Assembly: GCA_019973155.2 (NCBI GenBank)
Contig: BPQB01000002.1
Location: forward strand, 62,001 to 126,000
From: Phanerochaete sordida
Lineage: Eukaryota > Basidiomycota > Agaricomycetes > Polyporales > Phanerochaetaceae
Direction of reading: 5' to 3'
DNA: 64,000 bases
Shown here: piece after piece, positions 8,079 through 48,221 of the stretch
Position numbering within the stretch: position 1 is the first letter of the stretch
Layout of the letters: the number at the start of each line of letters is the position of its first letter
The notes under the pieces: generated by a model
Seen by the model: only the letters and a program-made list of their open reading frames with translations
The model's database searches: none
What the model was told of the DNA's origin: nothing
Made by a program: the position numbers and the translations under genes

Positions 8079-9813
8079 TCAAGCTTCATTGTCCTGCGGA
8101 GCCAGATGAATCACTGAGCTCAGACGGCCGTCAGAAGGAGCATGGGTATCGGCGCCGTGGTCATGTACAGATCCCGTGGCTCCACCTGTTTCGTCTACGT
8201 CTTCGTCCGCCGAGAATTCGACTGGGCCACCGAAATCCTCTGCGGTACACGACACGAACCGAATTCCTGATATCCTGGAACACGAAGGGTCTCTGGCACT
8301 CCCCAGAGAGGCATCCCTGTCAACCGCAGCAGCGCGCAGGTTGAGCATGAAGCGAGAGACGAAGACGGCGCTCAGGCTATTGGAGCTGGTCAGTCCAGCG
8401 TTGCGATCGACCTACAGCAGGCACGTACCCGTCTCCGAGGACGCGGCTGGTGCGCTGGTGCTGCATCGGATTTAGGGTGAGTGGTTATATGCGTGCCCCG
8501 GAGCCAAAGCACTCACAGCGAAGCGGATCTGAATGATGTTCACTGTGTTCAACACCATGAGCCAGCTTGTGCTCTATGTCAGCCTAGAATCGTCTCAGGA
8601 AATGATAGAGGTGATGCTTACACGAAGTAGAGAATTCCTATTGCGCCATCAGCAAAGCTATCACAGTGAGCAGATGAAAAGACGTGCCGTCCCGTAGAAT
8701 CATTTCGCTGAAGGACCTCCTCATCCCCAGCCTAGCAAGTACAAGGCATGTCGAGATTGTTTTGCCCAGCGTGAGACCTAGCACGAGGATGTCGAAGGCG
8801 ATAGTCGCAGCGACAGTTGCGTATCCAACTGCAAATTTCGGCTGGTGAGCACACCAAATACACGGCGAGGTGCCTAGACGTACATCTGAAAGCCGGTCAG
8901 GTTGTCTCTGCGCTGCTATACCAGTAAACACAGACGTACATGTCGGCGTCTTCCGGGGACATTCCCGTGAGGATGGTGCAGCCGGTGATTGGCACCACGG
9001 GTTCCCATGAGATTGCGATGTACTTCGTGTACGTGTACTGTAGCAACGGGCGTGTCATTAATGAGCTCGCCCATAACTATGCAATGATGCGTGCTCACCA
9101 TGACGACTATGGCCGGCAACAGCCCCGCGAAGAACACGAGATACCCCACTGTCCTTCTGGAGCCCCATATTGCATATGCCCGGAGGGATAGTATCACTAT
9201 GTATCAGTGGTCCGTGTCAGCAAACAGGGAGTTTTGTCGCAGCAAGGTACCAACCGGCCACATTGATCTGGACGAGCAGAGCTAACGCCTCGGTCAGGTG
9301 GAGCAGTGCTCCGCAACTGCAGGCGACAGATAAGGCTCTTCCGGCAGTATCATCAAAGGACGCTGCGGTACGCACATCTATGGTATTCGTGAGCTCCCCA
9401 TGGGCACTCAGAAGATAGGAGCGGACGACGTACTCTGTCAGCGGCCGTCTCTAATAAAGCCACGTTGTCGGCTGTCCCTTGTGCGAGCACAAGAACGCGT
9501 AACGCGAGAGCGCCGTAACGGTTGATGTAGAACAGCAGCGTCATCCCAGAGAACGGCCGCATCCACATGTAGCAAACTTCCTGGGGCAGCGTCAAGATGT
9601 GGTCGTACACAAGCCACGCTTGATCCCATGGCGTGAGTGTCACCGGAATGAATATCGACAGTCGGCTGACACGCACCACAAGTCGCGATAGCGTAGTAGT
9701 TTGACAGTCTCCTTCACGGGCAGTCAGAACGCATCGGAATGCAGCGTGAACATGACGAACGTTTGATGGGATCGTAGGGCCAGCAACGGCAGCCCTCCAA
9801 CCTGGTCGGTCAT
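8079..9813 (-). CDS. DUF6533 multi-pass membrane protein, copy b
   Basis: The start exon (ATG at 9813) encodes MTDQVGGLPLLALRSHQT and ends in phase 2. It is followed by RLSNYYAIATCG, then the DUF6533 core AWLVYDHILTLPQE, a W-rich linker and FYINRYGALALRVLVLAQ. Further exons give CGALLHLTEALALLVQ, VILSLRAYAIWGSRR, a loop with PITGCTILTGMSPED, FAVGYATVAATIAFDILVL ending ILRDG, and a final exon with RFMLNLRAA and an acidic tail ending at 8079. All frames join with short GT-AG introns, and no stop was found. Six or seven TM helices are predicted by eye. It is the closest paralogue of copy f (36352). It starts 425 bp from the oppositely oriented peptide gene S4. Confidence 0.82.
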
Positions 9814-10238
9814 CGCGGATGGGGCAAAAGCCTGAGTTGCTCCCGGAATGATACCACGAAACGCTCCGTCGAGACAGCTAGATGCCCCTCTCTCCCAGGC
9901 GGCTGACGATTCAGATATGTCCTATGCAGGGGTACTAGCAAGGTCAGCCTCGTCGAGCTCGAGTACCCTGGCATCGCACCTCTGGAAGGCTGACCGTCCT
10001 CGAATACCCGATATGCTCTGCGGAGGACCTTGTGCGTAGACACTACAGGGGCGTGGCAAACGCGCGTAGCTGGGGGTTGCGAGCGAGATCTAGACCGATG
10101 AATCCCTCCGCCAGCCAGGCCCGGGTCCTGCACAAGAGCGGTCAGCCACCGTCAGCACCGGGCTGCGTCACATATCATTCCCTCAGCGAAGCACAGTTCT
10201 TTCTTACCTACGTCTTGTCCCACCCCACGTCCGCTGCT
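9814..10238. promoter_or_regulatory. Shared divergent promoter region of DUF6533 b and peptide S4
   Basis: This is 425 bp between two start codons facing away from each other. No other gene is seen. I infer a shared bidirectional promoter because the same arrangement recurs at five other places in this window. No defined operator is visible. Confidence 0.45.
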
Positions 10239-10630
10239 ATGGTCGCCATGTCTCGCGCCGCGGCCGTTACAGTCGCATTTTCCGTCCTGGGCTGGACCCT
10301 GGCACAGAACGCGTCGTGAGTACCGCTTGCGTGTCCACGAGCCTTTCGCCTGACGACATACCTCCGCGCAGTTCTTCCGAGCAGCGTGTGGCCCTCGCAG
10401 GTGTCGAGGCAACGCCCGCCAGCGGGTCGAGCATAGAGCTGCAAGACGCGCATGGCGTCTCGAGTTCAGGGTATGTCCTTCGTCATCCGCTGCCCTTGCA
10501 AATCCGGCTGACGTAGAGATACCCCAGGGACGCGCATACGCTTGGATGCGATGAATGCCACTGCAACACGCCCAATGTGCCCAGGCAGTGCAGGATGTGC
10601 TGCGGCGGGACAAGCCCCGACGGGCCCTGA
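10239..10630 (+). CDS. Small cysteine-rich secreted peptide S4 (92 aa)
   Basis: Three exons join cleanly: 10239..10315 (77 nt), 10372..10470 (99 nt) and 10528..10630, both introns GT-AG and phase 2. The product is 92 aa. Residues 1-22 form a signal peptide (hydrophobic AAAVTVAFSVLGWTLA), then NAS, a Ser/Ala-rich spacer, and a C-terminal cluster C-x2-C-x-C-x8-C-x2-CC, ending GGTSPDGP. It has the same gene plan as S5 and S6 and the same CC-ending cluster as S2 and S3. Small cysteine-rich secreted proteins act outside the cell as effectors, toxins or signals in other fungi; which applies here is unknown. It is divergent from DUF6533 b. I do not recognise a named family. Confidence 0.62.
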
Positions 10631-13205
10631 GCGCTGCGCCGGTGCAGCGGCCCCGGGGAGTCCGGTAGCACGAAGTGCGGCAAGGCGGATACTTGTCTTG
10701 TCGTTCAATGCGAATAGAATCTGGCGTCCGACGCAGAGTTCGTGTGACGTGTTGGCTTGAGAGGTCCGCGTAACCCGACGGGCGTGTTGGGTTCTGTGCG
10801 GCAGCGGAGGGAGTAGATCGAGATCGTAGGTTTGCTCATATTTGGCGCACGCGCACGGCACATGCACGGGTTTCCGCCAGCACACCCGTGGTGGGCAGCA
10901 AGTAGATATATTGCTCGCCTAGCCGGGGACGAGAAGTGCGTGTACAAGAGGCTCGACTCGCCACGCGCGCGGCTAGCACATACCGCTCAGCTTCCTATAG
11001 AGAAAATTAAGCAGTGATACTCAAGAATACGAGCAGAGACGTCACCCACCAGCACGTATCCCGCTCCAAACCCCGCCGCCCACCGCTTACCTGGCGCCTC
11101 CAGCGCATCGCGCATGCACACATCCCGTCCGGTTTGCCCCTAACGGGGCTGTCCACGCCGCTTCGGTCAACTAGACACGCATGCGGAGGTGAGGATCGTG
11201 GAAGCGGGTGAAGAGCACAGACGCGGGCGCGGTCGCGGAGCGCAGGAAGTCCGGCGTCTCGCCTCAGCTTCGTGGCGTTTCCACGTGGAGACCACGCGAG
11301 CGCCGGCGCTACAAACACTTCCCGCCCAGCAGGTCGGTTGGACGCCGTCCACGACGAGGAGCTCGTACACCTACTCACGAGGTCTGACATAGCTGAGGAT
11401 CTTGGTCAGTGGCATGTACTATGGTCAAGCAGCTAACATCTTCGCAGGAAACATGCGCGGGATGCTGTCTAGCAGCGTGTCTAGCCCTCCACCTGTCGGT
11501 CTCAGGCTGGGTAGATGCTGGACACCGTAGCCCCTGACTTCGACATGCACTGGCTTTCCATCTGCACATTTATCTTCGCAAACCTCTCAGGAGGTCTTGC
11601 GCTCACCTTGCAGAACGCATGAACCTGCCATAACCACCTCTCGGCGTCCGACGCGCCTTCTGTGCCGATCCCGGGTCTCTGGTCGTCGGGATCGCCACGG
11701 AGAAGCCCAGGCCTTCCCTTGGGCCGCTTCCACGACCGGGCATAGGACGACGATCTACGGCATCTTGTATTCACGGCCTCGACGACTGAATGGGTGACCG
11801 AGGCCCGAGACCGTGGCGGTCGTCACCCTCGGGTCTCGGTCACGTAGGACGCCGAGCATGCGTCCGCCTGCCCGGCCAGCACCCAGAATCTCGAAGTCCG
11901 AAAAGTGGCAAGTGTTGCGCGCGCGGCAGTACGCTGGCGTCATGGATGTCCCGCCTCCAGTCGGGCGCGCTCGGGCGGCGACTCGTCGAGTCCAGGCTTC
12001 GTGATGCTTCCCAGGCCGAAGGGGAAGCCCAGGCCGTGCGCATTTGTAGCCGAGTACGTCAGTGACGCGCTCGAGCTGCAGATCATGGCTGACGTATGTG
12101 TCTGCGCGCGACACAGACATTCTCGCCATGGACCCGGTACAGATTCGCAGGTTGTTCGAGATTCCTGCGTCCGTTGCCATGGGCTGCCTGCGATCTCGGA
12201 GATTCTTGAATATGTTCTGTGTAGATGCTCCCGAAGTCTTGGCCGCCTTTGTGGCGCAAGTTGGCGGAGGCCCCTGGCGGCGGTTCTTGTCCTCGCAGCG
12301 CAGACTCCTGGTGTCTTCCGACTGGTCTCTATTTTCTGTGCTGACTGTACACGCCACGTTTTCGTCCATTGCTTCTGCGCTGCACTGGTGACGAATCTTC
12401 CTCCCTTCCTCGCTATTTATCGCCCGTCCCAAACAAGCACACCCGCGTTAGCTGCGAGGTCCTGCACAGTTCCCTATCTGGCGGTGCGCACCCTCGCGCC
12501 GGCGCCGCCACTCTCGTAATACACTCTTGCTCAAACGGAATGCCGTTGCGCGTATCGGCCGCTCTGACATTCACGAGGATGGTCCTCGACCGTCAGCTGA
12601 ACGCTCCCCATCTTCAGGGGCTCCATCGTGTCCATCGCAATTGCAATTTGATGGTCAGGCTGTCGATGCGTGCATGAGCATGAAACCATCCTCGCAGCGG
12701 TGGGGTGCGCTATCTACTGCAGTGAGTGCAGCGTGTTCCCACAGAGATGCTGGGGCGGGGTCCCGAGATAGCGTCCAGGGCGAGATAAGATTAGATTTCG
12801 TTCGATTTTGAATATCGGGATGTTAGACGCCAAAGCCTGGACCCCGAGCGTTCGCGCAGCTCGTTCTCGCCTTGCTCTCGCCCGCGCCGCTGCCGTCGCC
12901 CAGCCTCTTCCGGAGCGTCCGTCGCCCAGCCATGCCGTCCGTTCCTTGCGGTCGACGTCCATGTGAACATGTTCGCACTCTCGAAGACACGAGCCAGCGC
13001 AACCCAGGTCCGGGCGTCCCTCGCCGGGCAGCTCCTCCACGCGCCCACGTCGAAGCTCGTGCGTCGAACGTCTCAATCCGGAAGCGTCCCCGTCCCTGTC
13101 CGTCGCTGGCGCAATGCCCTCCCGATAAATAGCTGACCGCGCTGCCCCCGAGGCCCCCAGCGCACCCGCGTCGTCCCCCACACCCACACCCGCACACACT
13201 CCACC
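10631..13205. other. GC-rich gap between S4 and ADH
   Basis: I find no gene with coherent exons here. Several long open frames on both strands (for example 11755-12432, -) have composition-driven Arg/Ala/Ser-rich translations. A short stretch near 11.25-11.35 kb resembles the reverse complement of about 40.85-40.98 kb. The last ~100 bp carry a pyrimidine/CA-rich leader typical of a well-expressed fungal gene upstream of ADH. Confidence 0.45.
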
Positions 13206-14720
13206 ATGTCCCAGTTCACCATCCCCAAGACCATGAAGGCCGCCGTCGTCGACTCGAGCGACGCGCCGCTCGAGATCCGCGAGGTCCCTGTCCCCGCGCC
13301 CGAGAGCCTCAAGCCCGGCGAGTGCCTCGTCAAGCTCGAGTGCACCGGCGTCTGCCACACCGACCTCCACGCCGCGAAGGGCGACTGGCCCATCCCCGCG
13401 AAGACGCCGCTCATCGGCGGGCACGAGGTGCGCATCTTGCGTCTTCTCATCTTCACGCGCTGACGCGCCGCGCCAGGGTGTTGGCATCGTCGTCGCTATC
13501 GGCGCGCACACGCAAGACTCGCCCGTGCAGCTCGGCGACCGCGTCGGCATCAAGTGGCTCGCGGACTCCTGTCTCGACTGCGAGCTGTGCAGGAAGGGCC
13601 TTGAGCAATGTGAGTCGCGCTTTGCCCCGTCCTCGCGGCCCAGGTGTCCGTCCTCTTTCCCTCGCACGCCATCAACCTCGCTGGGGCACCGAAGCACCGG
13701 ACTCCGCACGCCCGCCACGTCCTGCCTTCGCGAGCCTCGGCTTGTGGCGTGCGACGGCTGCCAAAGCCGCCACGGGCCTGCTATGGCAGACGGACGCTCC
13801 TGGGTACCGCAATACAAGACATTTGCTGACTATATGCGTCTCTAGCATGCGCCAAGGGCAAGTACAGCGGCTTCACTGTCGACGGCACCTTCTCGCAATA
13901 CGTCCTGTCCTACGTCCGCCACGTCACGCCCATCCCCGAGAACATGGACAGCGCAGAAGCCGCGTCCATCCTCTGCGCCGTGAGTCCCCCGCGCTCTGCA
14001 CCCCTCGCTTCGCTGACCGCGCCACACAGGGTATCACCGTCTACCGCGCGATCAAGTACAGCCGCTCGAACATCGGCGACTGGATCTGCCTGCCGGGCGC
14101 GGGCGGCGGGCTCGGGCACCTGGCCGTGCAGTACGCGGCCGCGATGGGCCTGCGCGTGCTCGCCGTCGACACGGGCGCGCAGAAGAAGGAGCTCGTGATG
14201 AAGCTCGGCGCCGAGGCGTGGGTCGACTTCCGCGAGACGAAGGACCTCGTCGGCGACATCAGGCGCGCGACGGGCGGCGAGGGCCCGCACACGGCCGTCA
14301 TCACCGCCGCGACGAGCACCGCGTACGAGCAGGCGATTGATTACCTCCGGCCCGGAGGGAAGCTCATGGTCGTCGGGCTCCCTGCGCGCGCGTCGCTGAA
14401 TGCGGATATCTTCTTCACGGTCGTGAAGAGCATCAGTATCCTTGGGTCTTACGTCGGGTGCGTTTTTGTTGCGCATATAGTCGGCTTCTCGTGCTTATGC
14501 GTGTGCTGCAGCAACCGCCAGGACGCGCGTGAAGCCCTCGACATTGCGAGCCGCGGCAAGGTCAAGTGCTTCTTCGAGCTCAAGCCGCTCTCCGCACTCA
14601 AAGAGTACGTATCGCTCTTCTTCGTTATCTGGGCGTGCGCTGATCCTTGCGTGCAGGACGTACGAAGGCCTCGAGCAGGGCAAGATCGTCGGGCGTGTCG
14701 TGCTCGACATGAAGAACTGA
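13206..14720 (+). CDS. Zinc-dependent alcohol dehydrogenase (medium-chain, fungal ADH1-like)
   Basis: Six exons join to 357 aa: 13206..13427, 13477..13609, 13846..13979, 14030..14457, 14512..14604 and 14657..14720. Introns are GT-AG; the second is unusually long (236 bp). The GroES-like N-terminal half has the catalytic zinc ligands C in GVCHTDLH, H and E in GGHE, and C in SILCA. The structural zinc lobe is C-x2-C-x2-C-x7-C within DSCLDCELC. The Rossmann fold carries GAGGGLGHLAVQYA and an acidic VLAVD, which implies NAD rather than NADP. The family oxidises primary alcohols or reduces aldehydes in the cytosol (fermentation or ethanol use). The CA-rich leader suggests good expression. An inverted dead copy lies at 6402-7834. 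The start is supported by the MSQFTIPKTMKAAV N-terminus normal for the family. Confidence 0.95.
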
Positions 14721-15056
14721 GCGCGCGCGCGCCGTCGGCATTGCTCGCCCTCCCTCACCCCGCCTCCGCCTCATCTTCCCCCCTCACTTGTCTCACCCTC
14801 ATAACCGCCCCTTCCGCCCTTCTCCTCGCCTGCTTCGCCCCTTGTATCCCCCTCACGGACTAGAAGCTCACTCGGCCGTGGAATTTGTATCAAAATTCGC
14901 ATCGTGTATGTCTACAGGAACTGGGCTGATGCCGTTGTAATATCTTGGAAGGTTTTGTTTGTAATGCAATAGAAACGGTTGAAAGCGATGTGTTCTTTGG
15001 TGTACGATGCTCTGCAGATTTGCGATGCTCTGCGGGACCGTCAGCTTCGCGGTGCT
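14721..15056. other. 3' flank of ADH
   Basis: Pyrimidine-rich then AT-richer sequence, consistent with the ADH 3' UTR. No gene is seen. Confidence 0.5.
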
Positions 15057-15597
15057 CTATGTGTCTGCAGGTGAGTGGTCTTGCTCGCGGGCTGGCTTAT
15101 TGCTAAGTTGCCAACATAACATGCAGGGAATTACATAAATATGCGAGACTCTTAAGTTATGGTGTGTGAGTGGGCAGGCGGAACATATGTATCTCCGTCT
15201 AAAATCAGATTCAGGATGTGCTCGGTTCAGTGGGCACCGGCGTGAAGCCTGTCACCGCTCCATTCGGCCCTCCGAAGTGCATGTCTCCGACGTCGGGCGT
15301 GGGGAGGTTCTCCCAACCCACCCACCTGTAACGGGGCTCGAGGTCGCGCTGGCCGCTGATCCACTGCTATGAGACGACGAAGTAGGACACCGAACCGGCT
15401 CTACCCACCTTTCGTGGCCACACAACTGGGCGGCCTGCGACATTGTGCTAGCTGCATCGTCGAAGTGCCTACGCTTGTCAGCACCCGCACCTGGCTCTGA
15501 CTGGTGGCGAGAGTACGTACCCGATGGGACATGCGACTGCCATGATGACTGACGCAAGGACAGTGCATCCCGCGATCGCGTGATTGGATACGAGCAT
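15057..15597 (-). CDS. Small secreted peptide candidate S8 (exon 1 firm, rest tentative)
   Basis: The ATG at 15597 opens a 77-nt exon (15597..15521, phase 2) with a signal-peptide-like run GCTVLASVIMAVACP, followed by GTACGT. This is exactly the exon length, phase and donor of S5 and S6. A TATATAAG box lies ~64 bp upstream. Downstream, several splice choices exist. One gives a tail with NGAVTGFTPVP and no cysteine cluster. Another reaches an exon with ICSAC and PCMLCW, ending about 15057, which would restore a paired-Cys end. I cannot choose between them. It lies 576 bp upstream of, and divergent from, DUF6533 gene c. It is the positional counterpart of S9 in the other duplication arm. Confidence 0.38.
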
Positions 15598-16173: not shown

Positions 16174-17933
16174 ATGTCGAACGGTGCTGCGCAAGCTGCA
16201 TTCGTCTTCTTGGTTGAAGAAAAGCTCAAGGAGCTGTCAGTGCACTCTACCCTCCGAAATGATGTCACGCTCACAATGTAGCACACGCAGGAGACTCGCC
16301 AACTGCTGCGCCACTGCCGCATGCTGTGCGCCGCTTTACCCGCTGGGTTCACCCGGAGACATCGCTCAACCGCCTTTCGCAGGTCTCCTTCTCTACGACT
16401 ATCTGTTGACACTGTCAACGGAGGTGCGCTGCGTCTGGCGAAAGCGTCTCAATGGCGCTTCTCTTCTCTTCTACGTCAACCGATACGGCGCAATCTCGCT
16501 CCGGGTTGTACTCCTGGCGCAAGGCACAATCGACTTTGGGCCGCTGTCAGATGCGTTCTCAGACAGAGTCCGTCCTCCACTCGTATGGGCATGCTGTGTT
16601 AGTTGACAGGTTCTTCTCGTAGCTGTACGCTACATGCTTTCCTCACACCGTCAAAGCAGTTTAATGTATCACATCTCCGTCCGCAGATGCACGATCTTGT
16701 CGTGGCTTTCCCAGGCACTGTCGGTCGTAATTCAACTTGACATCGCAGGTATATTCTCCAGCCGTGGACCCTGTCAGCTACTCCCTACAACTGATTTCTT
16801 CGTAGCCATCACTGCACTGCGAATCTACGCGATCTGGAGCCCACACAGAGCCATCGCCGCATTGAGCATACTTGTCGTCGGTGCTATACCCGCCGTTATC
16901 AGTATCGTGAGTCGCGGACGAGGTGACCTTTGACTATAATTTAAGCTCACGTATCAGGTCATTAACCTCAGAGACACGTTCCCAGCTCTGCCTCCGCCGT
17001 TCACTGGCTGTGGCACGATAACCGGCCTCAGTGACTCGAGCACCACAGCGTACGTCGCGGACTGAAGGCTGCTGGGAATATAAATCATACTCATTCTTGC
17101 CCTCCAGCTGTACGTTGACTAGACCTTAGATCCCCAGCTTTGTCATACAACCGTGCCTTTCACAGTCGGCTACGCCATTGTCGGATCCACGATTGCATTC
17201 GATGCTTTCGCTCTTGCCCTCACAGCGGCGAAGACGGTGTCAACATGCCGTGAGCTCATGAGACTGAACATTAAGACATCGCTCAGTGCTATGATCGTGC
17301 GCGATGGTGAGCGCATAGTCCGTGTCATCGCCTTTGGAATACCACCGCTCATCACGGCTACAGGCTCTATCTGTTTTATGTGAGTGAGCATTCTGTGAAC
17401 GGCGACCACATTAAGCTGAGCAAGCTTTAGCTCTTTACTCGCGCTTAACATCGCGAACGTCTTCGCAATTCGCTCGCAAGTGAGTACTCCACACTTGCGC
17501 GCTGCCCAATTAGCTAACATTGTGAGTGATGCAGGATATCGGGTCTATCCGCGTCTTGAACGAGGCGTAAGCTTTCTCTGCGACTCTTTAATGCATGCCG
17601 TGTGCTGAGTACACTGGGCCTGCTAGTCTCAGCTCGATCTTCGTCTCCCACCTCATCCTCAACTTGCGCTCCATGACTGCTAGCGGTGGCAGCAAAGGCG
17701 ATCCTGTCTATGGCCACCTGCGACAGCCCTCAGGATTGCGATTCGTTGCCAACGCCGCAGAGAGCTTGGGTGCTCCACTCACCTTCGACCGTGCAAATGA
17801 CCATGCTGTCGGGCTAGATCACGCAGCAGCAGACTCGTACGAGAAACGCACCCACGAAGATTCGTCCTCGATGACTGGAAGGACGATAGGCGAGCTAGAC
17901 GATTTCTTGGATGAAGAGCCCTTGTGTGCCTGA
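16174..17933 (+). CDS. DUF6533 multi-pass membrane protein, copy c
   Basis: It starts MSNGAAQAAFVFLVEEKLKE at 16174. A second exon carries RLANCCATAA and a third the DUF6533 core LLLYDYLLTLSTEV, FYVNRYGAISLRVVLLAQG. Then come WLSQALSVVIQLDIA, ALRIYAIWSPHRAI, a loop with ALPPPFTGCGTITG, VGYAIVGSTIAFDAFALAL ending IVRDG, SICF, LLALNIANVFAIRSQ, IGSIRVLNEA, and a last exon with SHLILNLRS and a His/Asp-rich tail ending DEEPLCA at 17933. Every junction is GT-AG with consistent phase, so it looks intact. The C-terminal tail is polar and acidic and presumably cytoplasmic. Tandem paralogue d follows. Confidence 0.82.
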
Positions 17934-35414: not shown

Positions 35415-36351
35415 ATTGGCTGATGTAGGGGTGATCGACGAGTGGGGTTGTAGGTGAGGAGCGCCTGCGCTCTGTGCAGACGCTTATGAACCGGGCATGG
35501 CGCGGATGACGGTGGCTAACGAGTGTCGTGTAGGCCTCAAGGCCTCAAGGCTGACTGGCACGAACATGCGCCGTGCGGCACGCCGCTGGTGGTATCCTGC
35601 GCCCTGCACCACCCTGACCTGGTGGGGCTGACTTTTGCGGGACCATACAGTGAGACAGCAAGGTTCTTCTCCGAGCAGCGTTTTTGCCGTCGTTCGGGTG
35701 GTCATTAATACCGGTGAGTGCGGCTGACCGTTTGGTGGCAGTCGGACGCGAACGGTGGCCGCAATTGGGGCGGCGCACGCGACGTGTGTCGGGGGCTCGT
35801 CAGCCCCCGACAGACAGTACCTTCCGCTATGTCTGCGGTCTTCTGTCTCATAGCCTCGATGCCTCTCCAGGTGCGGCGGCCGGCGGTCCGCAGGCGAACA
35901 TCGCGCAGGGCGCGCAGATGGCGGTGTCCGAGGCCCTGGGCCATGAGGAGATTGCCGGTAGCTTCCGCCCACAGCTCGAAATGGCAGTCGCGCCGCCATA
36001 TCGACCGCGCCGCGCGCATCGCACACGGTCTGCAGTGGGGGCAGCCGATTTTCCCGTTCCCGCTGCATGATGCTCGTCACCGGAGCACGCTGTGGCGCGC
36101 ACGTGTCCGTGCATCTGTCACGCGAGTTCCCCGGTATGGACGCCTGCAAGCGTCGTCCGACGCGCATCGGAGCGGCGGCGGCGGTCGTCGATGGCGTCGC
36201 CCGGACGCGTTTTGTCGGCCATGTGCATGGCCCCACGGCATGCGTGAATGGGGCATCTCTGGGGCGTGAATTGGCTACGGCGATACGAACATATAGCTGC
36301 TGCCGTGCTGGACCGCTCCCCGCCCACGAGACTCCCCCCCCCCGGTCCGCG
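35415..36351. promoter_or_regulatory. Divergent region between S3 and DUF6533 f
   Basis: This is 937 bp between opposed starts. A 317-codon open frame on the minus strand spans nearly all of it, but its translation is composition-driven. No discrete element is defined. Confidence 0.4.
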
Positions 36352-38075
36352 ATGTTCGACCAGGTCGGAGGACTGTCGCTCCTCGCGCTGAGATCGCAGC
36401 AAACGTGCGGCTCCACGCACTGTATTCTGGCATCCACTGACCGTGTCCACAGGCGACTCTCAAACTACTACGCGGTCGCTACCTGTGGTTCGTGCACACC
36501 GAGCGTGGACATCTAGGCTCGTGACACTCACGCCGTGGTGCCCCAAGCATGGCTCGTCTACGACCACCTGCTCACGCTCCCTCTCGAGATCCGCTGCATG
36601 TGGCACGCGCCGTTCCGCGGGACGTCGCTGCTGTTCTACATCAACCGTTACGGCGCCCTTGCGCTGCGCCTGCTCGTGGTGGCGCAAGGGACTGCCGACA
36701 TCAGCCCTCTGTCCTCGGAAGAGGCGGCTGACAGCGTACGTGCCTCGCGTCGATTGCGCTCACGCATATAGCGAGCTGACGGCATTGATAGTTGTATGTA
36801 CTAGTGCGCGGCAGCCCACACGGTCGAGCAAGAGAGCTCATGTGTTGTCCATAGCTGCGGGGAGCTGCTGCGCGCGACAGAAGTGCTATCTCTGCTCCTC
36901 CAAATCGACCTGATAGGTATGTCTCGTCCTTCGAGTGAGCGATTCTGGCTCCTCACGCGCAGCCTATCCCATAGTCATCCTTTCTCTCCGCGTATACGCC
37001 ATCTGGGGCTCACGAAAAGCAGTAGCGTCGCTCGTGTTTCTGACAGGGATGTTACCGGCCGTGGTTGTCATGGTAAGTCCGCGCTTTGCACGACTGCATG
37101 GAGCAAATGACATCCCACGCACGTCTGCAGTACACATACTCCACGGACGTCGCGACCGCCTGGGAGCCCGACGTCCCGATCACAGGCTGCACGATATTTA
37201 CCGGGTGGTCTCCGGAAGACACCGATGCGTGCGTCTATGACCTCCCATCGCGAACGCGCCTCTGACTGTCTCGCAGATGTACGTCGACGCGCTATCTAGC
37301 GAGATGTCCACGCTCACATGCCCTGCGCAGTCGGATACGCAGTCGTCGCCGCGACCGTCGCGTTCGACGTCCTCGTGCTCGCCCTCACCGTGAGCAGGAC
37401 GGTCTCGACGGCGCGCGTGTTCGCGCGGCTCGGCATCAAGACGTCCTTGAGCGAATTGTTGTTGCGTGACGGTGCGCAGACCCAGTCATCGCTGTGTTCG
37501 TCTTCCTGATGGCTCGGCAGGGATCCTCTACTTCGTGTACGCGCCCCTCGCGCAACGTCACGACAGTTACTGACACGCCGCCCAGCTCGCTCCTAATCCT
37601 GAACGTCGTAAACATCCTCCAGATCCGCTTCGCCGTACGCCCTCCTTCTCTGCGCGCACACACGCCCTCACCCACACTCTTGTAGCACCAACGCACGAGC
37701 CGCGTCCTGGGCGACGGGTACGCCCCCCCCTCTCCTCCCCACCCCAACTAACTAACTGCCCCGCGCAGCCTCAGCGCGCTCTTCGTCTCGCGCTTCATGC
37801 TCAACCTGCGCGCGGCGCTCGTCGAGCCGGACGCCACGCTCGGAAGCGCAGACGGCGCGCGCGGCGCGAAGATGTCTGGGATCAGGTTTGTGGCGGGTGC
37901 GGCGGAGGAGTTCGGTGGATCGTTCGGGTCTGCGTCCGGAGGCGGCTACGACGATGAGACGGATGGGACGGATGGGGACTCTGGGACTGGGCATGAGATG
38001 GATGTTGTTGCTGGTGTGGAGGAGGACGGGCAGCTCGATTCTGTTGTGCACTTGGCTCAAGGCAGTGAAGCGTAA
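36352..38075 (+). CDS. DUF6533 multi-pass membrane protein, copy f
   Basis: The start exon MFDQVGGLSLLALRSQQT (36352) is nearly that of copy b. It is followed by RLSNYYAVATCG and AWLVYDHLLTLPLEIRCMW, FYINRYGALALRLLVVAQG. Later exons are CGELLRATEVLSLLLQIDL, VILSLRVYAIWGSRKAV, a loop with PITGCTIFTGWSPED, VGYAVVAATVAFDVLVLAL ending LLRDG, GILYFV, LLILNVVNILQIRFA, TSRVLGDG, and a tail exon with SRFMLNLRAA and many Gly/Asp residues. It ends at 38075. All junctions are GT-AG. Intact by eye. Confidence 0.83.
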
Positions 38076-38890: not shown

Positions 38891-40599
38891 ATGACATCCC
38901 CCTTTCCCATCCTTCTCAGCAGGGACTACTACCTCGCGCTGCTACTCGAGCGGCTGTCAGTGTGACCCGAACATGTCCTTGTATTTTGGCTCACGACACT
39001 TCTGCACAGGAGGATTAATCATTACTACACCGTCGCTACTTGTGGTGAGTCACTGACCGTGCACATCAATGCGCCTCCATCGGTTCACCCAATACCGCGA
39101 ATTGCAGTGTGGTTGATCTACGACTACTTCCTTACGCTTCCCCAGGAGGTCGATTGCATATGGCGAAAGCCGTTCGGCGGTCTGTCTCTCCTGTTCTATG
39201 TCAATCGCTACGGAGCTCTCGCCTTGCGCGTTCTTGCGGTGATCCAAGGAACTCCGAATAATGGACCGCTTTTCGCAGACAGAGTGCGTTATTTTCCACC
39301 ATTGCAAACATTGACAGCTTATCCTTGTGGTAGCTGTGCGTACAGTTTGAGCCTCCTCTGGAGCATCCATTCACAGCATGCTTGTGCACTTCGTAGCTGC
39401 GGGACACTACAACGTACGACCGAAGTACTATCCGTGATCCTCCAAGTGAACATCGCAAGTGAGACTCGCGCTACTCACTCACCAGTCGTCCTCAATCCGC
39501 TCACGCATCACATCACAGTCATCCTCTCGCTCCGCGTCTACGCCATTTGGGGCTCAAGCAAAGCTACAGGCTGCCTGGCTTTACTTGCGGGTATATTGCC
39601 GACGTGCATCACTTTGGTAAGGGTCGGACTTTCGTTGTTCGCAGTGGGTCTTGATACTTTGTGCTGCTGCAGTTTACGTATTTTACGTACACCTCACGCC
39701 CTTGGGGTCCTCCTTTTGGCCCCTGCGCCACATTTTCGAGCATGTCGAGTGCGGCGGCAAATATGTGCGTCTCAACACATCTCTGTATCTATGCATCTCA
39801 GATACTAATTGGAGCCTAGTTGTACGTTTGCCCCACGTCAGATGCTACATGAGCTCACAATTACCGGCAGCTAACTACACAATCATCGCGTCAACAATCG
39901 CATTAGACCTCTTTGTGCTTGTTTTCACTGCGGCTAGAACCATACCGACATGCCTTGAGCTCTCGAGCTTCAATGTCAAACGATCCCTAAGCAGTACTCT
40001 GTTGCGCGACGGTATGTAGCCGTATTTGTGCTTGTTGGCATAGTGCTCACAAGCCACTGGCAGGAACTGTCTACTTTCTGTACGTTCTACAGGCATCACT
40101 AGGGAATTCACGCTTGCTGATCCATGATTACGCCAGCTCGCTGCTCCTGTTGAATATTTGGAACATTCTCCAGATTCGATTTCTGGTAGGCAATCGCATG
40201 TGCCAAGTGTCTATACTCAATCTTACAATTGTCTGCAGAACGCAGGATTGAACCGTGTGCTCGGCGATGCGTATGTGTACACGACAAAACGCTATAGCAC
40301 TCTGACCAACCTTTGGGCGCAGACTCGGCGCCGGGCTGGTTTCTCGTCTTATCCTCAGCCTGCGCACCGTGGGGTCTGGGATGAATCCCTCGCGCACAAG
40401 TACCAGCGATGTACGACCGCCACAATCATTTGCCGTAAGGTTTGCTTCTGCCACGGTCGATGATTTCGCTACTCCTCTAGAATTTGGGGTCTCTGACGAA
40501 GGCGAGGGGGGTATGGGTGAAGCGGACCAGCCCGGTCATGAGGACGACACGGAGCCAACACCATCGCATGATCAGCCAGAGTCGCCAAGTTGGGGGTAG
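38891..40599 (+). CDS. DUF6533 multi-pass membrane protein, copy g
   Basis: MTSPFPILLSRDYYLALLLE (38891) is spliced to RINHYYTVATCG and to VWLIYDYFLTLPQEVDCIW, FYVNRYGALALRVLAVIQG. Then come CGTLQRTTEVLSVILQVNIA, VILSLRVYAIWGSSKATG, a loop with WGPPFGPCATFS, ANYTIIASTIALDLFVLVF ending LLRDG, GTVYFL, LLLLNIWNILQIRFL, LNRVLGDA, and a tail exon with LGAGLVSRLILSLRTV, an acidic Gly-rich stretch, and a stop at 40599. It belongs to a g-h-i subgroup sharing the LGAGLVSR and FASATVDDF tail motifs. Confidence 0.83.
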
Positions 40600-41371: not shown

Positions 41372-41818
41372 CTAGTTGCGGTACGACCCATCCGCCACAG
41401 GCCCGGCATCCTGCAGATCCGGAACATCTTTGAGGCCGTGTCCGTTGCATAGCGTGCAGCACGACGGAGAGCCTACGGCTTCGACAGCGCAATCAAGGCA
41501 GCCGCATCTCTCTTCTCTGGGTTGGTGATGCTGCGCGTGAGCGTGGAATTGATGATTGACAGGACCCAGAACACGCACGGTATTAGCAGGTCTTCGAAAA
41601 GCGTCGACATGGCGTGGGTATCTGGGGCGGCCGCGCCAGCAGGTTTCTCCTCGAGGATCGCGGCAGCCATTGGCGGAGTCACAGGCCTACTCGGTCATCA
41701 AGCTCAGTGGGAGTCGCAGTTGCACGGCAGGATTGACGTACCTTGCGGGATGGGCAAGAGCAAGCGCCAGAGCCACAAGTCCACTCGCGGAGGCGAAAAG
41801 GCGCGGTAAGGCGACCAT
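41372..41818 (-). CDS. Small cysteine-rich secreted peptide S5 (109 aa)
   Basis: Exons 41818..41742 (77 nt), 41686..41579 (108 nt) and 41516..41372, all phase 2, with GT-AG introns of 55 and 62 bp, give 109 aa. A clear signal peptide (LFASASGLVALALALAHPA) is followed by an Ala/Pro-rich spacer containing AAILEEKPAGAAAPDT. Next comes a Cys block C-x-C-x2-C-x9-CC-x2-C, then NGHG and a polar tail. S6 shares exon lengths, spacer pattern (LE..RAGTAA.DT) and the CC-x2-CNGHG motif. It is divergent from DUF6533 h (998 bp between starts). Function is unknown. Confidence 0.65.
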
Positions 41819-42815
41819 ATTGACTTGAGTAGTGCGAAGAAGGGATCCGAGCAGCGGCACGATCTGACATAATGACAGAGGCTGACGGTTACCCCCGCCC
41901 GTTCCCCGTGCAGCTGAATACTTCCACGCGGGCCACATCGAAATTCGGTCTGGACCTCGAACGCAGTGGTTGGGATCGCAACGTGCACAGCTTCGGTGAG
42001 CATCTAGGTGTCCGGAGAGGCTGATGTTTGCATTGAATGGCGATCATGAGTCCATGCGTTTGACAAAGCTGAACTGAATCGTGCTTCACAGCCACAGAGC
42101 ACGTCGACGACACAAACTACGCAGCGAGCTCAGCTTGAGACGAGTCGCGCGTGCGATGTGCAAGGACGGAGTTATCAAGTAAGGGCCCGAGATGCGAAAC
42201 AGACATTCTTAACTGCTGCGGTCCTAGGTCACAGCCTCGTTCGGTCGCCCTGCCATTCGCATCCAGCCGGAGCGACGGACCCGATCGATTCCATCCGAAT
42301 CCGGACCATGGAGCCATGCGCTTGCCTCGGCCAGAAGTTGTCCGGGACGCGCATCTCGGATGCGCCCTGTGGGCGCCCTCCTTTTCCCCGAGATGTTCTG
42401 CGCGCGACTCTCATCAATCATACCTCGCAGTTGCAGATGGCAGGTGTATTAGGTGCCACACAGCAGATCTTGGACACGGCTAGGGAACCGACACGCATCT
42501 CTGCCCATCACATCCTCGATGCGCCGCTCTTCGGACTTTGCGGTGGATGATGGCGAGCAGCGGGGAGCCGTCATCTGGTGTTCTTGACGATCCGCATCTC
42601 GGCCGCACCAGCACATGCCATTCGCGGTGGGCAACTTCCCAGACTTATGCTCTCCATTCCCCGAGTGCTCTGGCACTGGTCAGGTATCGGATTGATCTTC
42701 TTCAAGGTGCAGGAACTGCGCCAAAATGGGCATAACTGTTGTGGGTTCTTCGTATGTATTTATACACCCTCCTACAGCTAGGTCTCGTCGTTGATAGCCC
42801 CGCAGTACACCTGAG
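41819..42815. promoter_or_regulatory. Divergent region between S5 and DUF6533 h
   Basis: 997 bp. The half nearer h resembles the region upstream of DUF6533 i (about 46.1-46.4 kb), for example around the RRIEDV/RSIEDV coding-like stretch on the minus strand. This supports duplication of the whole peptide/DUF6533 unit. Confidence 0.5.
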
Positions 42816-44563
42816 ATGGCGTCCTCGCCTTCCGCCTTCTTCTCCGAGGGCTACCTGCAGCTACTGGCCGAGAGGCTACAGCAGACGTCAGTATAGCGCT
42901 GGCCCGACGATGACAGCCACAATCAGCTCACGTTGCGTTTACATAGGTCAGTCGAGAATTACTACATCGTCGCTACCTGCGGTATGTCGCTATTTATGCA
43001 ACACCGTTCATATTCTTGACTCATGCATCTGAATAAAGTGTGGCTGGTCTATGACTACTTTCTCACGCTGCGACAGGAGGTCGACTTCATATGGCGAGAG
43101 CCGTTCAGTGGACTCTCTCTCCTGTTTTATATTAACCGCTACGGCGCTCTCGCCTTACGAGTGTTTGTGGTAGCGTACGTGACCCCTGATACTGGACCAC
43201 TGTCGCAGGAATATGCTGATAGAGTGCGTAAGCTCCCGTTCTTGATCGGCAGTGTCGTGACTGACATGAGCGACAGCTGTGAGTACCGCGGCTGACTTCT
43301 CCAGGAGAAAGCACTCAGGACAGATTTCTGCATGTTGTAGCTGCAGTGTACTGTTACATTTCACAGAAATATTATCGGTCATCCTACAAGCAAATATTGC
43401 AGGTGAGCCTCGCTCAGCGTGTCCCCTACTCCTCAAGTCCCCTCATGCGTCTTATGGCAGTCATTCTCTCACTCCGCATATACGCCATCTGGGGCTCGAA
43501 TAGAGCGATAGGCTGCCTTTCACTTCTCATAGGCATCCTGCCGTCGTGCGTTGTTCTGGTAGGCGTGGTTATAATCATGCGAACGGGCTTGTCTGATTCT
43601 CCTGCAGCTTACGTATTCCAAGAGCACTTCAGGCCCATGGGGTCCCCCGATTCGTGGGTGCGCCACATTTTCCAGCATCTCAAATACGGAAATGGATATG
43701 TACGTTTCAACACGCTATGTATACATAATATATCTACGACGCTCACTCACGCATAGATGTACGCTCGAGCCACGACAGGTCCCACATGCACTAACAGGCC
43801 ACTTGTAGTTGGCTACATAATCGTCGCATCATCGATTGCATTCGACCTGCTCGTTCTCATCCTGACCGTGGCGAAAACAATCTCGACATACCGCACCCTG
43901 TCGCGCTTCGAAATCAAGGAGTCATTGAGTAGCGTCCTTTTGCGTGACGGTGCGTTGCTGTATTTGTGAACTTAACCAAAGTACTGACCTGTCATCAGGT
44001 GCCATCTATTTCATGTAGGCTTTCGACGGTCGTACATTTATATTTTGAATTACTGCTGACTTATCGCGATAGCTCCCTTCTCTTCTTAAATATCCTCAGC
44101 ATTTTTCAGATCCTGTTTCTGGTACGTATCTTGTCTACGGAACACTGTTGTTCTAAATGATTAACGGTATCCTGCAGAATGAAGAGTCGAGCCTTGTCCT
44201 GGTAGATGCGTGAGTTGACACTGTCCAGCACCACCCCACTCCACTGATAGGCTTCGGCGGAGCAGACTCGGTGCCGGGCTGGTCTCTCGTTTTATCCTCA
44301 GCCTGCGCTCCGTGAATTCTGCGACAGGAACTTCGCGCGGAACGACCAACGATATGCGGGGACCTCCACGATCCTTCAGCGTGAGCTTCGCTTCTGCCAC
44401 GGTCGACGACTTCGGCGCTCCTCTCGGCTTTGGAGCTCTCGACGACGATAGCGAAGACTGGGATGAAGTGGGCCAGCCCGGACATGAATACGACACGGAA
44501 TCAAAGCTTCCGAGTGATCAGCTGGACTCGGCGGTACACGGAGCCGATGAACCAATGGCCTGA
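42816..44563 (+). CDS. DUF6533 multi-pass membrane protein, copy h
   Basis: Exon 1 42816..42886 (MASSPSAFFSEGYLQLLAER, phase 2) is spliced to SVENYYIVATCG and VWLVYDYFLTLRQEVDFIW, FYINRYGALALRVFVVAY. Then come CSVLLHFTEILSVILQANIA, VILSLRIYAIWGSNRAIG, a loop with WGPPIRGCATFS, VGYIIVASSIAFDLLVLIL ending LLRDG, GAIYFM, LLFLNILSIFQILFL, SSLVLVDA, and a tail exon with LGAGLVSRFILSLRSV and FASATVDDFGAPL, stopping at 44563. The product is about 350 aa. It is intact by eye and a close paralogue of i. Confidence 0.83.
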
Positions 44564-44913
44564 CGAGCGATGTCGGTTGCGAACTGGTTTTTGATGTACG
44601 GTTGACCGTTAATTTATGCTCGCATTGCATGCGCTCTATAGCAACTCGATAAGAATGGGAAAGTGCGGTATGGGGAAGTATGGCCATTGATCTACATTTT
44701 TGACCGGAAATTAAAATAAAGCTGAAGTGCGCGTGGCTCCGAGCTGTTCGGCCGGTCAGCAGTCAGGAGGTCCGCAAGATATAATATCGCGATTCATATG
44801 CTGAAACGGAGTACGAAACTAAGCTTGCTGCGCCCCGCGACTGCTACCACAAACGACTCCTCCTGAGGCCCAACGCCATGCCACCTACCACGCAAGCTGA
44901 TGCGTCTGGCCCT

Positions 44914-45311
44914 TCAACGAGGCACATCACTATTGCCATGGCCATTACACAGCTTGCAGCAGTCGGGTGGATCCGTTATTGCGATGCATCCAGGGCATTT
45001 GCAGTCTCTGGATCTTATCCGCGACACTTCAAATGAGAATGTATCGGTGCATGACAAGAACGAAAACACCTACTCCATGTATCCGAAGAAAGGCTCTGGC
45101 GTAGCTCCGGTATCTACAGCTGCGGTTCCAGCACGTCGCGCCTCGAGGAACGCGGGAGTCCCCGAGGGCACTGCCCGCCTATTCGATGTCCTCGCTCAGT
45201 GAGAAGTGACGGCGGCGTACTAGAACGGACGTACTGGTTGGGGCGGGCTAGGGCAAGTGTAAAGGCCAGGAGTATACTGACGGCGGCGAGATAGCGCGGG
45301 GCGGTGGTCAT
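44914..45311 (-). CDS. Small cysteine-rich secreted peptide S6 (91 aa)
   Basis: Exons 45311..45235 (77 nt), 45178..45074 (105 nt) and 45007..44914, all phase 2, give 91 aa. The signal peptide is YLAAVSILLAFTLALARP. A spacer with PAFLEARRAGTAAVDTG follows, then DCKCPGC and DCCKLCNGHG (C-x-C-x2-C-x8-CC-x2-C), ending SDVPR. Exon lengths and phases repeat those of S5, and the Cys block is conserved while the spacer drifts. This is what one expects of a functional disulfide-bonded peptide. It is divergent from DUF6533 i (1186 bp between starts). Confidence 0.65.
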
Positions 45312-46497
45312 ATTGACGTGAACAGTGCGTATAGAGGAAACAATAACTGGCACGTCCTTTGGGACGGGTGGAGAGGCTGACAGCCACCCCGCCCCCTCTT
45401 TGCGGCTGACTAGACTTGTCAGACCCCACAGAAATTCGATCTGGACCTCGCATCCAGCGGTCGGGAATGCAACGCTCAATTCGTCTGAATGTCTATCTCC
45501 TCGAAGAGGTGAATGTGCGTCAAAGTAAGTACGTACGTTCAGGCTCGAGACAGCACTAAACTATCCTTCAAGGACGCGGAGTACGTCGGATACTATGCAT
45601 ACCGCGCCTTGTGCACACTCCGGTCTTCTTACACAGGATCCAGATAGGCAGCCCTGCCATAGAGCATGCAGAACGTACAGCGCGTGAGGTGGACGAGAAC
45701 GGCACCTCCGACGGTGTAGTCAAACTAGCGACTTTGGCACGGGAAGCACCGTATATAGCCCAGGCCAGCTTGAAGGCTGACGGCAACCTGTGACTGCCGC
45801 GACGACAAGGGCTTCGCTGCGGGCCGGGGAAAAGATGAAGCCTTCAAGCGTTGGCATGTACGATGTGAAGGTCATCACGCATGCAGTACGAAACAGATAT
45901 GGTCGCTTGCGCCACCGCCGCAATCCCACACGCATGCCCTGGTATTTGCACCTCGCCAGCTCGACGCCGCTGATCGCTTCCGTCCGAGCACGGATCATAT
46001 GTCCGCCTCGCGCAGAACTTGGCCAGGACGAGCATATTTCCTGTGAGCCCTCTTCTTCGCCTCAAGCTCTTATACGCAGAATTATCATCAAATTGAGCTT
46101 GCAGTAGGGTCACATCGGACGGAACACTGCAGCGTTGGTTCTCATACGAGAGACGATACGGCAGGCCTATCCGTCACGTCTTCGATAGATCGGTATTCGG
46201 ACTTTGCAGTAGTTGAACATGAACGTTTGAACTGTTGGAAACCGTCGTCAACTGTTGCAGTGGTCTTGATGATCCGCACGGAGCCCGAATCGGCACCGGT
46301 TCTTTTGGGGCGCGTAGCTTTCCAGAGTTGAGTATTCAAATGCTCGACCGCCACAGCGCTGATTAAATTTCGTAGTCTTCTCGCGCGAGGAACGCGAAGT
46401 GCGGCAAAATGAGGGACATCATTGATGAAATCGGTATGTATATAGACCACGTTCTACAGGCGGATTCGTTCGGTGACAGAAGCCCAATCCCCCTTCA
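45312..46497. promoter_or_regulatory. Divergent region between S6 and DUF6533 i
   Basis: About 1.2 kb, partly homologous to the S5-h spacer. No additional gene is supported. Confidence 0.45.
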
Positions 46498-48221
46498 ATG
46501 CAATCCTCACTACCTACTTTCCTCAGCCGCAGAAGCTACTTGCAGCTTCTCGATGAGAGGCTGAAAGAGACGTAAGTGTAGTCCCACAATCCTCACGAAT
46601 TTGAGATCATAACTGATATTCTCAGGGCGATCAACAATTACTACACAGTCGCCACCTGTGGTATGTCGCCAGCCGTATACGCGTACAGTTATGTTACTGA
46701 TGTTGCAGAACCAAGTCTGGCTGATATACGACCACTTCCTGACCCTACCACAGGAGGTCCATTGCATATGGAGGAAGCCGTTCAGCGGGCTGTCTCTCAT
46801 GTTCATCATCAATCGCTATGGGACTCTTGCGCTTCGTGTGCTTGTATTGGCCCAAGGAACTCCCGATACAGGACCACTTTCGCAAGAATTTGCAGACAGA
46901 GTATGTTGCTTCTGCTACCAACGGCGTTCAGGACTAACAATGTTTTAGTTGTCAGTACAGCTGCTGAGCTCTAGAGCGGACGCAACTCACCACAAGGTTG
47001 CATCAATTATAGCTGTGATGTCTTTCTGCGTGTGACCGAGATACTATCCGTAGTGCTCCAAATGAATCTTGCAGGTGAGGCTCGCACCACACGTCGATGA
47101 CTCCTTCCCTCATGTCTTTCCAACAGCCATCCTCTCGCTCCGTGTATACGCCATCTGGGGCTCGAATAAAGTGATAGGTTGCGTTGTTCTTCTAGCAGGT
47201 ATACTGCCGGCATGCGTTGCTTCGGTGAGTAAAATGATAGTCGCAAACAGCAAGTGTTCTCATCTCTTCTGCTAAAGTATACGTATTCCAGAAACACCTC
47301 AAGCCCATGGGGCCCTCCCATTGAAGGTTGTGCTATATTCTCTGGCATGTCTAACGCAGAAGCGGATATGTGCGTCTAGGCAGGCAGATACTTATGACAG
47401 CCATTGAGTGCTAACTGGGACGCAGATGTACGTTTAGGCGGTTTGATTTCACATACACGCTCATGCGCTACTCACAGTTGGTTACACAATCGTCGCTTCA
47501 TCGATCGCATTCGATCTCCTCATCCTCATCCTCACCATGGCGCGAACGATATCGACTTCCCTTGAACTATCAAGCTTCAAAATCAAGGAGTCACTGAGTA
47601 CCATTATCTTGCGCGACGGTGCGTAGTCGGCTCTGTCAGTTATATTGCCCCGCTAACCTGTCATTAGGAGCCATTTATTTTATGTCGGTCATACATGCAC
47701 ATGTTATGATTTGCCGCTGATCTGTCGCGACAGCTCCCTCCTTCTACTGAATATGTTCAGCATTTTCCAGATCCGATTTCTGGTACATACTTCATGTACC
47801 AGCCACCGATAGCCACTAACTGTATCTTGCAGAACGAAACGTCGAGTCGTGTGCTGGGAGACGCGTGAGTCAGCATGGCATGATCCTGCGGTACTGAACT
47901 GACAAACTTTGGCGGACCAGCCTCGGCGCCGGCCTAGTCTCTCGCTTTATCCTTACCCTGCGCTCGGCGAGCTCGGCGCGAGCTACTTTGCGCGGGGGCA
48001 CCAGTTATTCTCTGCAGCCGCGATCCTTCGGCCTCAAGTTCGCTTCTGCCACAATCGACGAGCTCGGCGCTCCTATAGACTTTGGGGCCGGCGGCGGGGA
48101 GAACGACGGTGATATGGTCGATGCGAACCAGCATCGATACGAAGACTACACAGGCCCAAGGTTGTTAGATGATGAGTTGGACTCGGTGGTGCACATAACC
48201 GATGGCTCAGGAGCCGCCTGA
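46498..48221 (+). CDS. DUF6533 multi-pass membrane protein, copy i
   Basis: MQSSLPTFLSRRSYLQLLDE (46498) is spliced (GTAAGT) to AINNYYTVATCG, then VWLIYDHFLTLPQEVHCIW, FIINRYGTLALRVLVLAQG. Further exons are VTEILSVVLQMNLA, AILSLRVYAIWGSNKVIG, a loop with WGPPIEGCAIFSGMS, VGYTIVASSIAFDLLILIL ending ILRDG, GAIYFM, LLLLNMFSIFQIRFL, SSRVLGDA, and a tail exon with LGAGLVSRFILTLRSA and FASATIDELGAPI, stopping at 48221. It is the third of the g-h-i set. Intact by eye. Confidence 0.83.

Follow-up and report, generated by a model that had tools for sequence, protein, structure and literature searches.

The genome of Phanerochaete sordida YK-624, a white-rot basidiomycete whose genes were predicted with BRAKER2 and curated manually (PMC8530024), contains a stretch in which genes for DUF6533 membrane proteins, predicted to span the membrane seven times (7TM), lie close to small genes for putative secreted peptides. 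We analyzed 64,000 nucleotides around this stretch (C2:62001-126000 of the 40.8-Mb genome), here called the window, and number all positions from its first nucleotide. Nine DUF6533 genes (a to i) and eight peptide genes are found there, and several of them stand back to back as divergent pairs.

The divergent gene pairs

Four pairs are firm. Gene b (8079-9813, minus strand; one GC-AG intron set manually) faces S4 (10239-10630, plus strand; exons 10239-10315, 10372-10470 and 10519-10630), which encodes a predicted Cys-rich secreted peptide of 95 amino acids (aa), or of 92 aa with an alternative acceptor. Gene f (36352-38075, plus) lies opposite S3 (35069-35414, minus; exons 35414-35335 and 35270-35069; 93 aa), gene h (42816-44563, plus) opposite S5 (41372-41818, minus; exons 41818-41742, 41686-41579 and 41516-41372; 109 aa; P0005 among the GenBank proteins), and gene i (46498-48221, plus) opposite S6 (44914-45311, minus; exons 45311-45235, 45178-45074 and 45007-44914; 91 aa), the peptides again being predicted Cys-rich secreted products. 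Genes b, f, h and i are paralog-guided models with PF20151 matches. For each of them the nearest divergent neighbour that we identified is the peptide gene, with start codons about 0.4-1.2 kb apart. The shared intergenic regions of the last three pairs extend over 35415-36351 (S3-f), 41819-42815 (S5-h) and 45312-46497 (S6-i).

Two further pairs are weaker. S8 (15211-15597, minus; exons 15597-15521, 15468-15409 and 15325-15211), a putative small secreted peptide gene of 83 codons, starts about 0.6 kb from gene c (16174-17933, plus; GenBank PsYK624_011280, spliced otherwise). S9 (5560-5879, plus; exons 5560-5636, 5690-5737 and 5801-5879), for a putative small secreted peptide of 67 aa and the weakest of the models, starts about 1.5 kb from gene a (2319-4011, minus; PF20151 match at 3714-3827; paralog-guided), a distance that depends on the provisional start of a. 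An earlier note on this DNA had listed all six pairs and called their peptides Cys-rich. We can uphold both statements for b/S4, f/S3, h/S5 and i/S6; c/S8 and a/S9 are less secure, as neither peptide has the cysteine motif and S9 needs a weak donor.

The other DUF6533 genes each stand in tandem behind a further member of the family: d (19244-20947, plus; start uncertain) 3' of c, e (21569-23314, plus; GenBank PsYK624_011290, a shorter model) 3' of d, and g (38891-40599, plus) 3' of f, with d and g again being PF20151-matching, paralog-guided models. Two more genes for Cys-rich, presumably secreted peptides, S3b (34053-34401, minus; 95 aa; P0004 among the GenBank proteins) and S3c (33169-33544, minus; 91 aa; intron borders less certain), follow behind S3, so that S3, S3b and S3c are three tandem paralogs.

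The DUF6533 proteins

To splice the nine receptor-like genes, each region was aligned by dynamic programming with a draft of gene h, which gave models in which a and d have provisional first exons. All nine genomic matches lie above the cut-off and all nine spliced models match PF20151 in a Pfam scan, which bears out the number of DUF6533 genes given previously. Pairwise identities among the proteins range from 33 to 72%. In keeping with their description as predicted multi-span membrane proteins, the hydropathy profile of the consensus of the nine has seven peaks (single sequences give 5-13 overlapping segments by the same simple method). Under a topology with the N-terminus outside, the presumed cytoplasmic loops contain on average 2.4, 2.2 and 4.9 lysine and arginine residues and the tail 5.7, as compared with 2.0, 1.9, 1.4 and 0.8 in the other loops. 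These counts are compatible with that topology; the C-terminal tail also holds a mean of 14.9 acidic residues (D+E).

Two cysteines, C100 and C170, are invariant in all nine proteins, and both fall on the predicted outer side. A cysteine pair linking the top of transmembrane segment (TM) 3 with extracellular loop 2 is a hallmark of rhodopsin-like receptors, and C100 and C170 form the pattern expected from such a predicted disulfide. In the Pfam scan at an E-value of 1, DUF6533 was found in 9/9 proteins and two chance families in one protein each; there was no match to STE3 or DUF6534, and a sequence search of PDB at E 1 returned nothing for any of the nine. The window proteins may have a fold like that of G-protein-coupled receptors (GPCRs) and may couple to G-proteins. 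The GenBank models of e (P0001) and c (P0006) omit exons that our paralog-guided models keep, from which it follows that published models of the DUF6533 family may be truncated.

A whole-genome search with the PF20151 profile, in which 150 of 203 candidates were scored (all genome-wide DUF6533 counts here rest on these 150), gave at least 150 matches, every one of those listed being above the curated cut-off; nine are in the window. Many of them stand in tandem clusters, for instance on contigs C58, C86 and C104. The 40 DUF6534 matches of the genome are all outside the window.

The nine window genes are a local group, in agreement with the strong local expansion noted before. With gene i as query against its own genome, scores run from 52 to 134 bits for the motif exons of b to i and come to 32 bits for that of gene a, and the best match outside the window, on contig C31, reaches 44 bits. 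In a tree of TM1-TM2 exons from the nine window genes and 44 other DUF6533 genes (those with sequence at hand, which leaves out the C31 genes among others; one row flagged as dubious, C2_230887, was kept), all nine cluster together with a single outside row, C4_746039, at a support of 0.935. Of the window members, gene a stands farthest from the others in this tree.

Restriction of the arrangement to the window

How special the arrangement is was assessed by scanning the 1.8 kb in front of 65 DUF6533 genes for opposite-strand signal-peptide exons, at least 1.2 kb of that sequence being at hand for each (the nine of the window and 56 others, out of the 150 scored). Counting only exons of 68-90 nucleotides (nt) that end in phase 2, the scan found them at 5/9 window genes (b, c, f, h and i) and at 0/56 others (Fisher 1.5e-5), and a relaxed form found them at 5/9 and 4/56 (p 0.0015), values that, for a window picked for showing the pattern, measure local restriction rather than the discovery rate of an unbiased survey. 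Neither form includes S9: the strict one excludes acidic n-regions, and the relaxed script kept one donor per start codon, which is probably how it lost S9. If exons of 50-111 nt and of any phase are admitted, divergent signal-peptide-like exons occur at 5/9 window genes and 10/54 others, and same-strand ones at 2/9 and 5/54. The 10/54 outside matches mean that there is a background under such loose criteria.

Two genes on C31, the nearest outside relatives of i, lack phase-2 exons of 68-90 nt within roughly 2.2 kb of upstream sequence, stretches that do hold exons of other lengths and phases. The divergent arrangement described before is thus present at 5/9 window genes even by strict counting, and its occurrence in more than one DUF6533 subgroup is supported as well. 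The wider expectation, that small secreted genes are enriched beside DUF6533 genes in general, fails in the species' own genome by the strict count, the C31 relatives included, and we reject it also in view of the few outside matches in the relaxed scan. If the pairs form a system, it is a property of this DUF6533 group and not of the whole family.

The peptide family

S3, S3b, S3c, S4, S5 and S6, spliced by hand and by script, encode peptides of 91-109 aa. Their signal-peptide exons measure 74-83 nt (77-80 nt in S3, S4, S5 and S6, the partners of the four firm pairs) and end in phase 2; S3 and S3b have one short intron, and S4, S5, S6 and S3c have two. The S3b and S5 models are identical, letter for letter, to the GenBank predictions PsYK624_011350 (95 aa) and PsYK624_011420 (109 aa), so that a separate annotation confirms them. 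Near the C-terminus there is a cysteine motif, CxCx2Cx8CCx2C in S6 (with x9 in S5) and Cx2CxCx8Cx2CC in S4. Taking all eight peptides of the window together, lengths run from 67 to 109 aa and 7/8 pass a signal-peptide heuristic based on hydropathy and cleavage site, with S9 failing its strict form.

Alignment scores against shuffled sequences (z) are 34.9 for S3/S3b, 18.6 for S5/S6, 6.5 for S4/S3 and 3.9 for S4/S5. The mature parts alone are above shuffles for S3/S3b, S5/S6, S4/S3, S4/S3b, S3/S3c, S3b/S3c, S4/S3c and S4/S5, marginal for S3c/S6 and S4/S6, and not above shuffles for S3/S5, S3/S6, S3b/S5, S3b/S6 and S3c/S5. By these similarities S4, which is represented by its 92-aa variant in the peptide alignments A1 and A2, bridges both halves of the set, and judging from the alignments the six Cys-rich peptides are one orphan family.

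In all five peptide pairs compared over their full length, the proportion of differing non-synonymous sites (pN) is below that of synonymous sites (pS). The corresponding rates give dN/dS ratios of 0.51 for S3/S3b and S5/S6, and of 0.42-0.47 for three more distant pairs that are near saturation; dN spans 0.24-0.69 across the five. Coding sequence and introns are 74 and 70% identical, respectively, for S3/S3b, and 57 and 62% for S5/S6. This picture fits genes that are translated, evolve quickly and are weakly constrained.

S8 and S9 have a 77-nt phase-2 signal exon followed by a second intron in phase 2, like the Cys-peptide genes, and are without the cysteine motif. S9 requires the weak donor GTCTGT. 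A kinship between S8 and S9 that had seemed visible by eye was discarded, its alignment score of 25 being reached by 22% of shuffles. Both are possible as genuine partners, S9 being the least certain.

None of the eight peptides has a Pfam match, and a profile of five peptides found nothing of note in PDB (best E 0.75). Hydrophobins are distinguished by eight cysteines with C-CC-C-C-CC-C spacing; the peptides of the window differ in cysteine pattern and, having no Pfam match, are not hydrophobins. Searches of the species' own genome, which scored the candidates from a loose first pass, returned beyond window exons just two weak matches with S6, S3 and S4 as queries (E 0.67 and 0.22), and three (E 0.2-0.7) once S8, in an earlier exon choice, and S9 were added; S9 has no relative elsewhere in them, and S5, S3b and S3c were not among the queries. 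For the peptides that were used, these searches indicate that the rest of the genome holds no convincing relative. A cysteine-pattern scan of L001-L040 marked six places in the window and one outside it (L002, a proline-rich frame), L008 being window sequence. In a collection of 5.8 billion proteins, a profile of S3, S3b, S4, S5 and S6, with S3c, S8 and S9 left aside, found only S3b and S5 of P. sordida themselves. The same collection returned only three and two DUF6533 relatives, two being P. sordida's own, with a rough hand-joined draft receptor as one query, which makes the absence of peptide relatives there weak evidence.

Shared intergenic DNA and gene trees

Together, the intergenic regions of the four Cys pairs (3538 bp) contain 12 copies of the heptamer GTCAGCC, where its frequency in 315 kb of other sequence predicts 0.88 (Poisson 2e-10, with 2657 7-mers examined). 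Four sites lie between b and S4, four between S3 and f, one between S5 and h and three between S6 and i. Among random interval sets, 1/1000 contained at least 12 copies. There are also three sites upstream of S3b, one upstream of S3c and two downstream of S3c, and none in the a-S9, S8-c, c-d, d-e and f-g regions; the 1-kb upstream stretches of 54 other DUF6533 genes hold 8 sites in total, and the whole window 31. With a threshold adjusted for how many words were compared, the only 6-, 7- or 8-mers to stand out were ones that overlap GTCAGCC. The pattern is good, though not conclusive, evidence that the Cys-peptide genes and their neighbours may be regulated in common through the DNA they share. 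The co-regulation proposed earlier for the neighbours is supported in this indirect way, by the element and the shared intergenic regions.

Trees were compared for the two kinds of genes. Among the receptor-like genes, b and f group together (support 98), and g, h and i are separated from the rest (97). Among the peptides, S5 and S6 are separated from S3, S3b, S3c and S4 (100). Two similar blocks recur in matching order in the S5-h and S6-i intergenic regions, one of 51 bp (80% identity) near the peptide start and one of 46 bp (74%) nearer the receptor, and the other 14/15 pairs of the six intergenic regions gave no BLAST match at E 0.01. Where the agreement of the trees is testable it is consistent with co-duplication of the pairs, but not decisive.

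Neighbouring genes

The remainder of the window includes four copies of a gene for a MYND zinc-finger protein, at 331-1335 (plus), 24162-27628 (minus), 49488-52918 (plus) and 54174-57617 (plus). Pfam matches confirm MYND at 24162-25166 and 51893-52918, and the other two copies were recognized by eye. At 49488 and 54174 the MYND gene comes after a frame of about 800 residues, the first of which is without Pfam match; an inverted copy at 25181-27628 looks similar to these frames by eye. Just behind a MYND gene in each case, short signal-peptide-like frames beginning MRIT[KQ]SNVVRCVTAAV lie at 23950 (minus), ending in a phase-2 donor, and at about 1551 (plus), ending in a stop; they are possibly another pair of small secreted genes. 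Gene b and S4 are flanked by two oppositely oriented zinc alcohol dehydrogenase-like genes, at about 6402-8117 (minus), assigned by eye, and at 13133-14863 (plus), assigned by a Pfam match.

Discussion

The best explanation of these data, to which we give a probability of about 0.4, is that the window contains co-duplicated divergent gene pairs whose products act as peptide ligand and 7TM receptor. We read the sequences as co-duplicated pairs that are probably co-regulated and whose products are, most likely, ligand and receptor. In this model, the peptide would enter the secretory pathway by its signal sequence, its C-terminal cysteines would fold the secreted product through disulfides, and the 7TM DUF6533 protein encoded next door would sense it at the cell surface, on the producing hypha or an adjacent one. 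Tandem duplication would have diversified the pairs into a set of private peptide-receptor signalling systems. Secretion, disulfide folding, specific binding, receptor function and downstream signalling are steps that we infer; the proposal of ligand and receptor draws on the topology, the linkage, the sharing of promoters and what is known of SNB1. The earlier suggestion that the partners may be ligand and receptor is consistent with the seven hydrophobic segments, the N-out pattern and SNB1.

SNB1 (Snowball) of Coprinopsis cinerea is a DUF6533 protein with a predicted 7TM topology, N-terminus outside and C-terminus inside, and according to the available part of its description fruiting-body patterning depends on it, and its authors regard a transporter, a channel or a receptor as possible roles; the snb1 family is small and stable, with 1-3 copies in most Agaricomycetes (PMC10949477). 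The window proteins resemble it in their domain and in a consensus that fits its topology, and differ in that a linked secreted peptide is not mentioned in that part of the paper (PMC10949477). The DUF6534 proteins are another orphan 7TM family of Agaricomycotina, proposed as a new class of fungal GPCRs in the accessible text of a 2025 survey from whose main text DUF6533 is absent (PMC12842992). Their Pfam domain is a different one, which 0/9 window proteins match. DUF6533 is also listed among the additional domains of two Ganoderma species in the available portion of a further report (PMC8955403). Among the papers listed in searches on DUF6533, fungal peptide signals, orphan GPCRs and toxins, judged by title and the opening of the abstract, we found no description of such a module (subscription papers lay mostly outside the search). 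The portions of the DUF6533 papers that were accessible name no ligand for the family, and the papers listed in a search for a P. sordida transcriptome included none.

In the basidiomycete mating-type B locus, a gene for a small secreted signal is linked with one for a 7TM receptor, and there are several divergent sets of such genes; the receptor is STE3 and the pheromone precursor has a C-terminal CaaX and no signal peptide. The window likewise links genes for small secreted peptides and 7TM proteins, and would, if they are ligand and receptor, work like a pheromone-receptor locus. The window is no mating-type B locus itself: STE3 is not matched by any of the nine proteins, CaaX is absent from 8/8 peptide models, and 7/8 peptides have a signal sequence by the heuristic. 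Another secreted fungal signalling peptide is Qsp1, whose precursor is processed. From the part of the Qsp1 work that could be consulted, and comparing by description only, this peptide of Cryptococcus is imported via Opt1 and does not act at a surface receptor (PMC7537855), unlike what we propose here.

Several observations weigh against ligand and receptor. The case for them is built from sequence. No peptide gene was found between d, e or g and the DUF6533 gene that precedes each on the same strand (c, d and f), and the 0/56 others in the strict scan imply that DUF6533 proteins generally need no such partner. S8 and S9 resemble neither each other nor the Cys family significantly, leaving a common ancestry of all eight peptides unsupported. 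With four firm pairs the trees would agree by chance in 1 of 3 cases, linked genes come to have similar trees through tandem duplication alone, and the partnerless g stands beside h with a support of 75. The coding sequences are scarcely more conserved than the introns, which speaks for weak constraint on the peptides. Some 7-mer is present in all four intervals with at least 12 copies in 8/1000 random sets, making this the weaker test of the motif. The AlphaFold model of a database relative (P0003), out of five relatives used, has a mean predicted local distance difference test score (pLDDT) of 45, too poor to use.

The main rival keeps the linkage and drops the interaction: genes for lineage-specific secreted Cys-rich peptides, arrayed in tandem with the DUF6533 genes, would be co-duplicated with them and, by sharing promoters, co-expressed at the same stage, and the peptides would be cell-surface, defence or developmental proteins instead of ligands. 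We consider this a doubtful but serious alternative. It accounts for the agreement of the trees, for the S3/S3b/S3c triplet and for the promoter element in common, and it sits well with the absence of such partners, by strict counting, from DUF6533 genes elsewhere. What it leaves unexplained is why the peptide gene is the divergent neighbour in four firm pairs, or six with the weaker ones, in spite of intergenic DNA so diverged that 1/15 comparisons gives a BLAST match. Compatible with any of the other readings, and with rather less than an even chance, is the view that the module is in part an artefact, with S9 and possibly S8 being chance frames and the real module limited to b, f, h and i with their neighbours from the Cys family. 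The weak donor of S9, its failure in the strict heuristic, the dissimilarity of S8 and S9 to the others and the lack of GTCAGCC in their intergenic regions would all follow; the 77-nt, phase-2/phase-2 architecture and the position that S8 and S9 share would not.

A toxin with self-protection, in which the secreted peptide is antimicrobial or antifungal and the neighbouring membrane protein confers immunity on the producer, is improbable. Small, Cys-rich and fast-evolving peptides (by their dN), a membrane-protein partner and local expansion would suit it, but the partner comes from a large 7TM family of which 56/56 other members examined lack a strict peptide-exon match, SNB1 has a developmental role, and the peptides match no Pfam family. 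Yet a little less probable is an allelic system of self/non-self recognition, which the earlier note also raised, with pairs that vary between individuals and mediate the recognition of other mycelia. It would resemble the logic of pheromone-receptor loci, and the local copy-number expansion and fast divergence are as it would predict; the pairs, however, are paralogs within one assembly, and the STE3 and CaaX features of such loci are missing.

Returning to ligand and receptor, we hold it, as a tentative claim, to be rather less than evenly likely that the peptides would give this 7TM family, which has at least 150 loci in the genome, its first candidate ligands, in a system that evolved separately from the mating pheromones and diversified by duplication of divergent pairs in one cluster. 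Linked secreted peptides that diversify together with their neighbours are concrete ligand candidates for specific receptors. An established transformation method has been described for P. sordida YK-624, and the pairing is therefore directly testable (PMC8530024). If true, the finding would open up the function of an orphan receptor family that is tied, through SNB1, to mushroom development.

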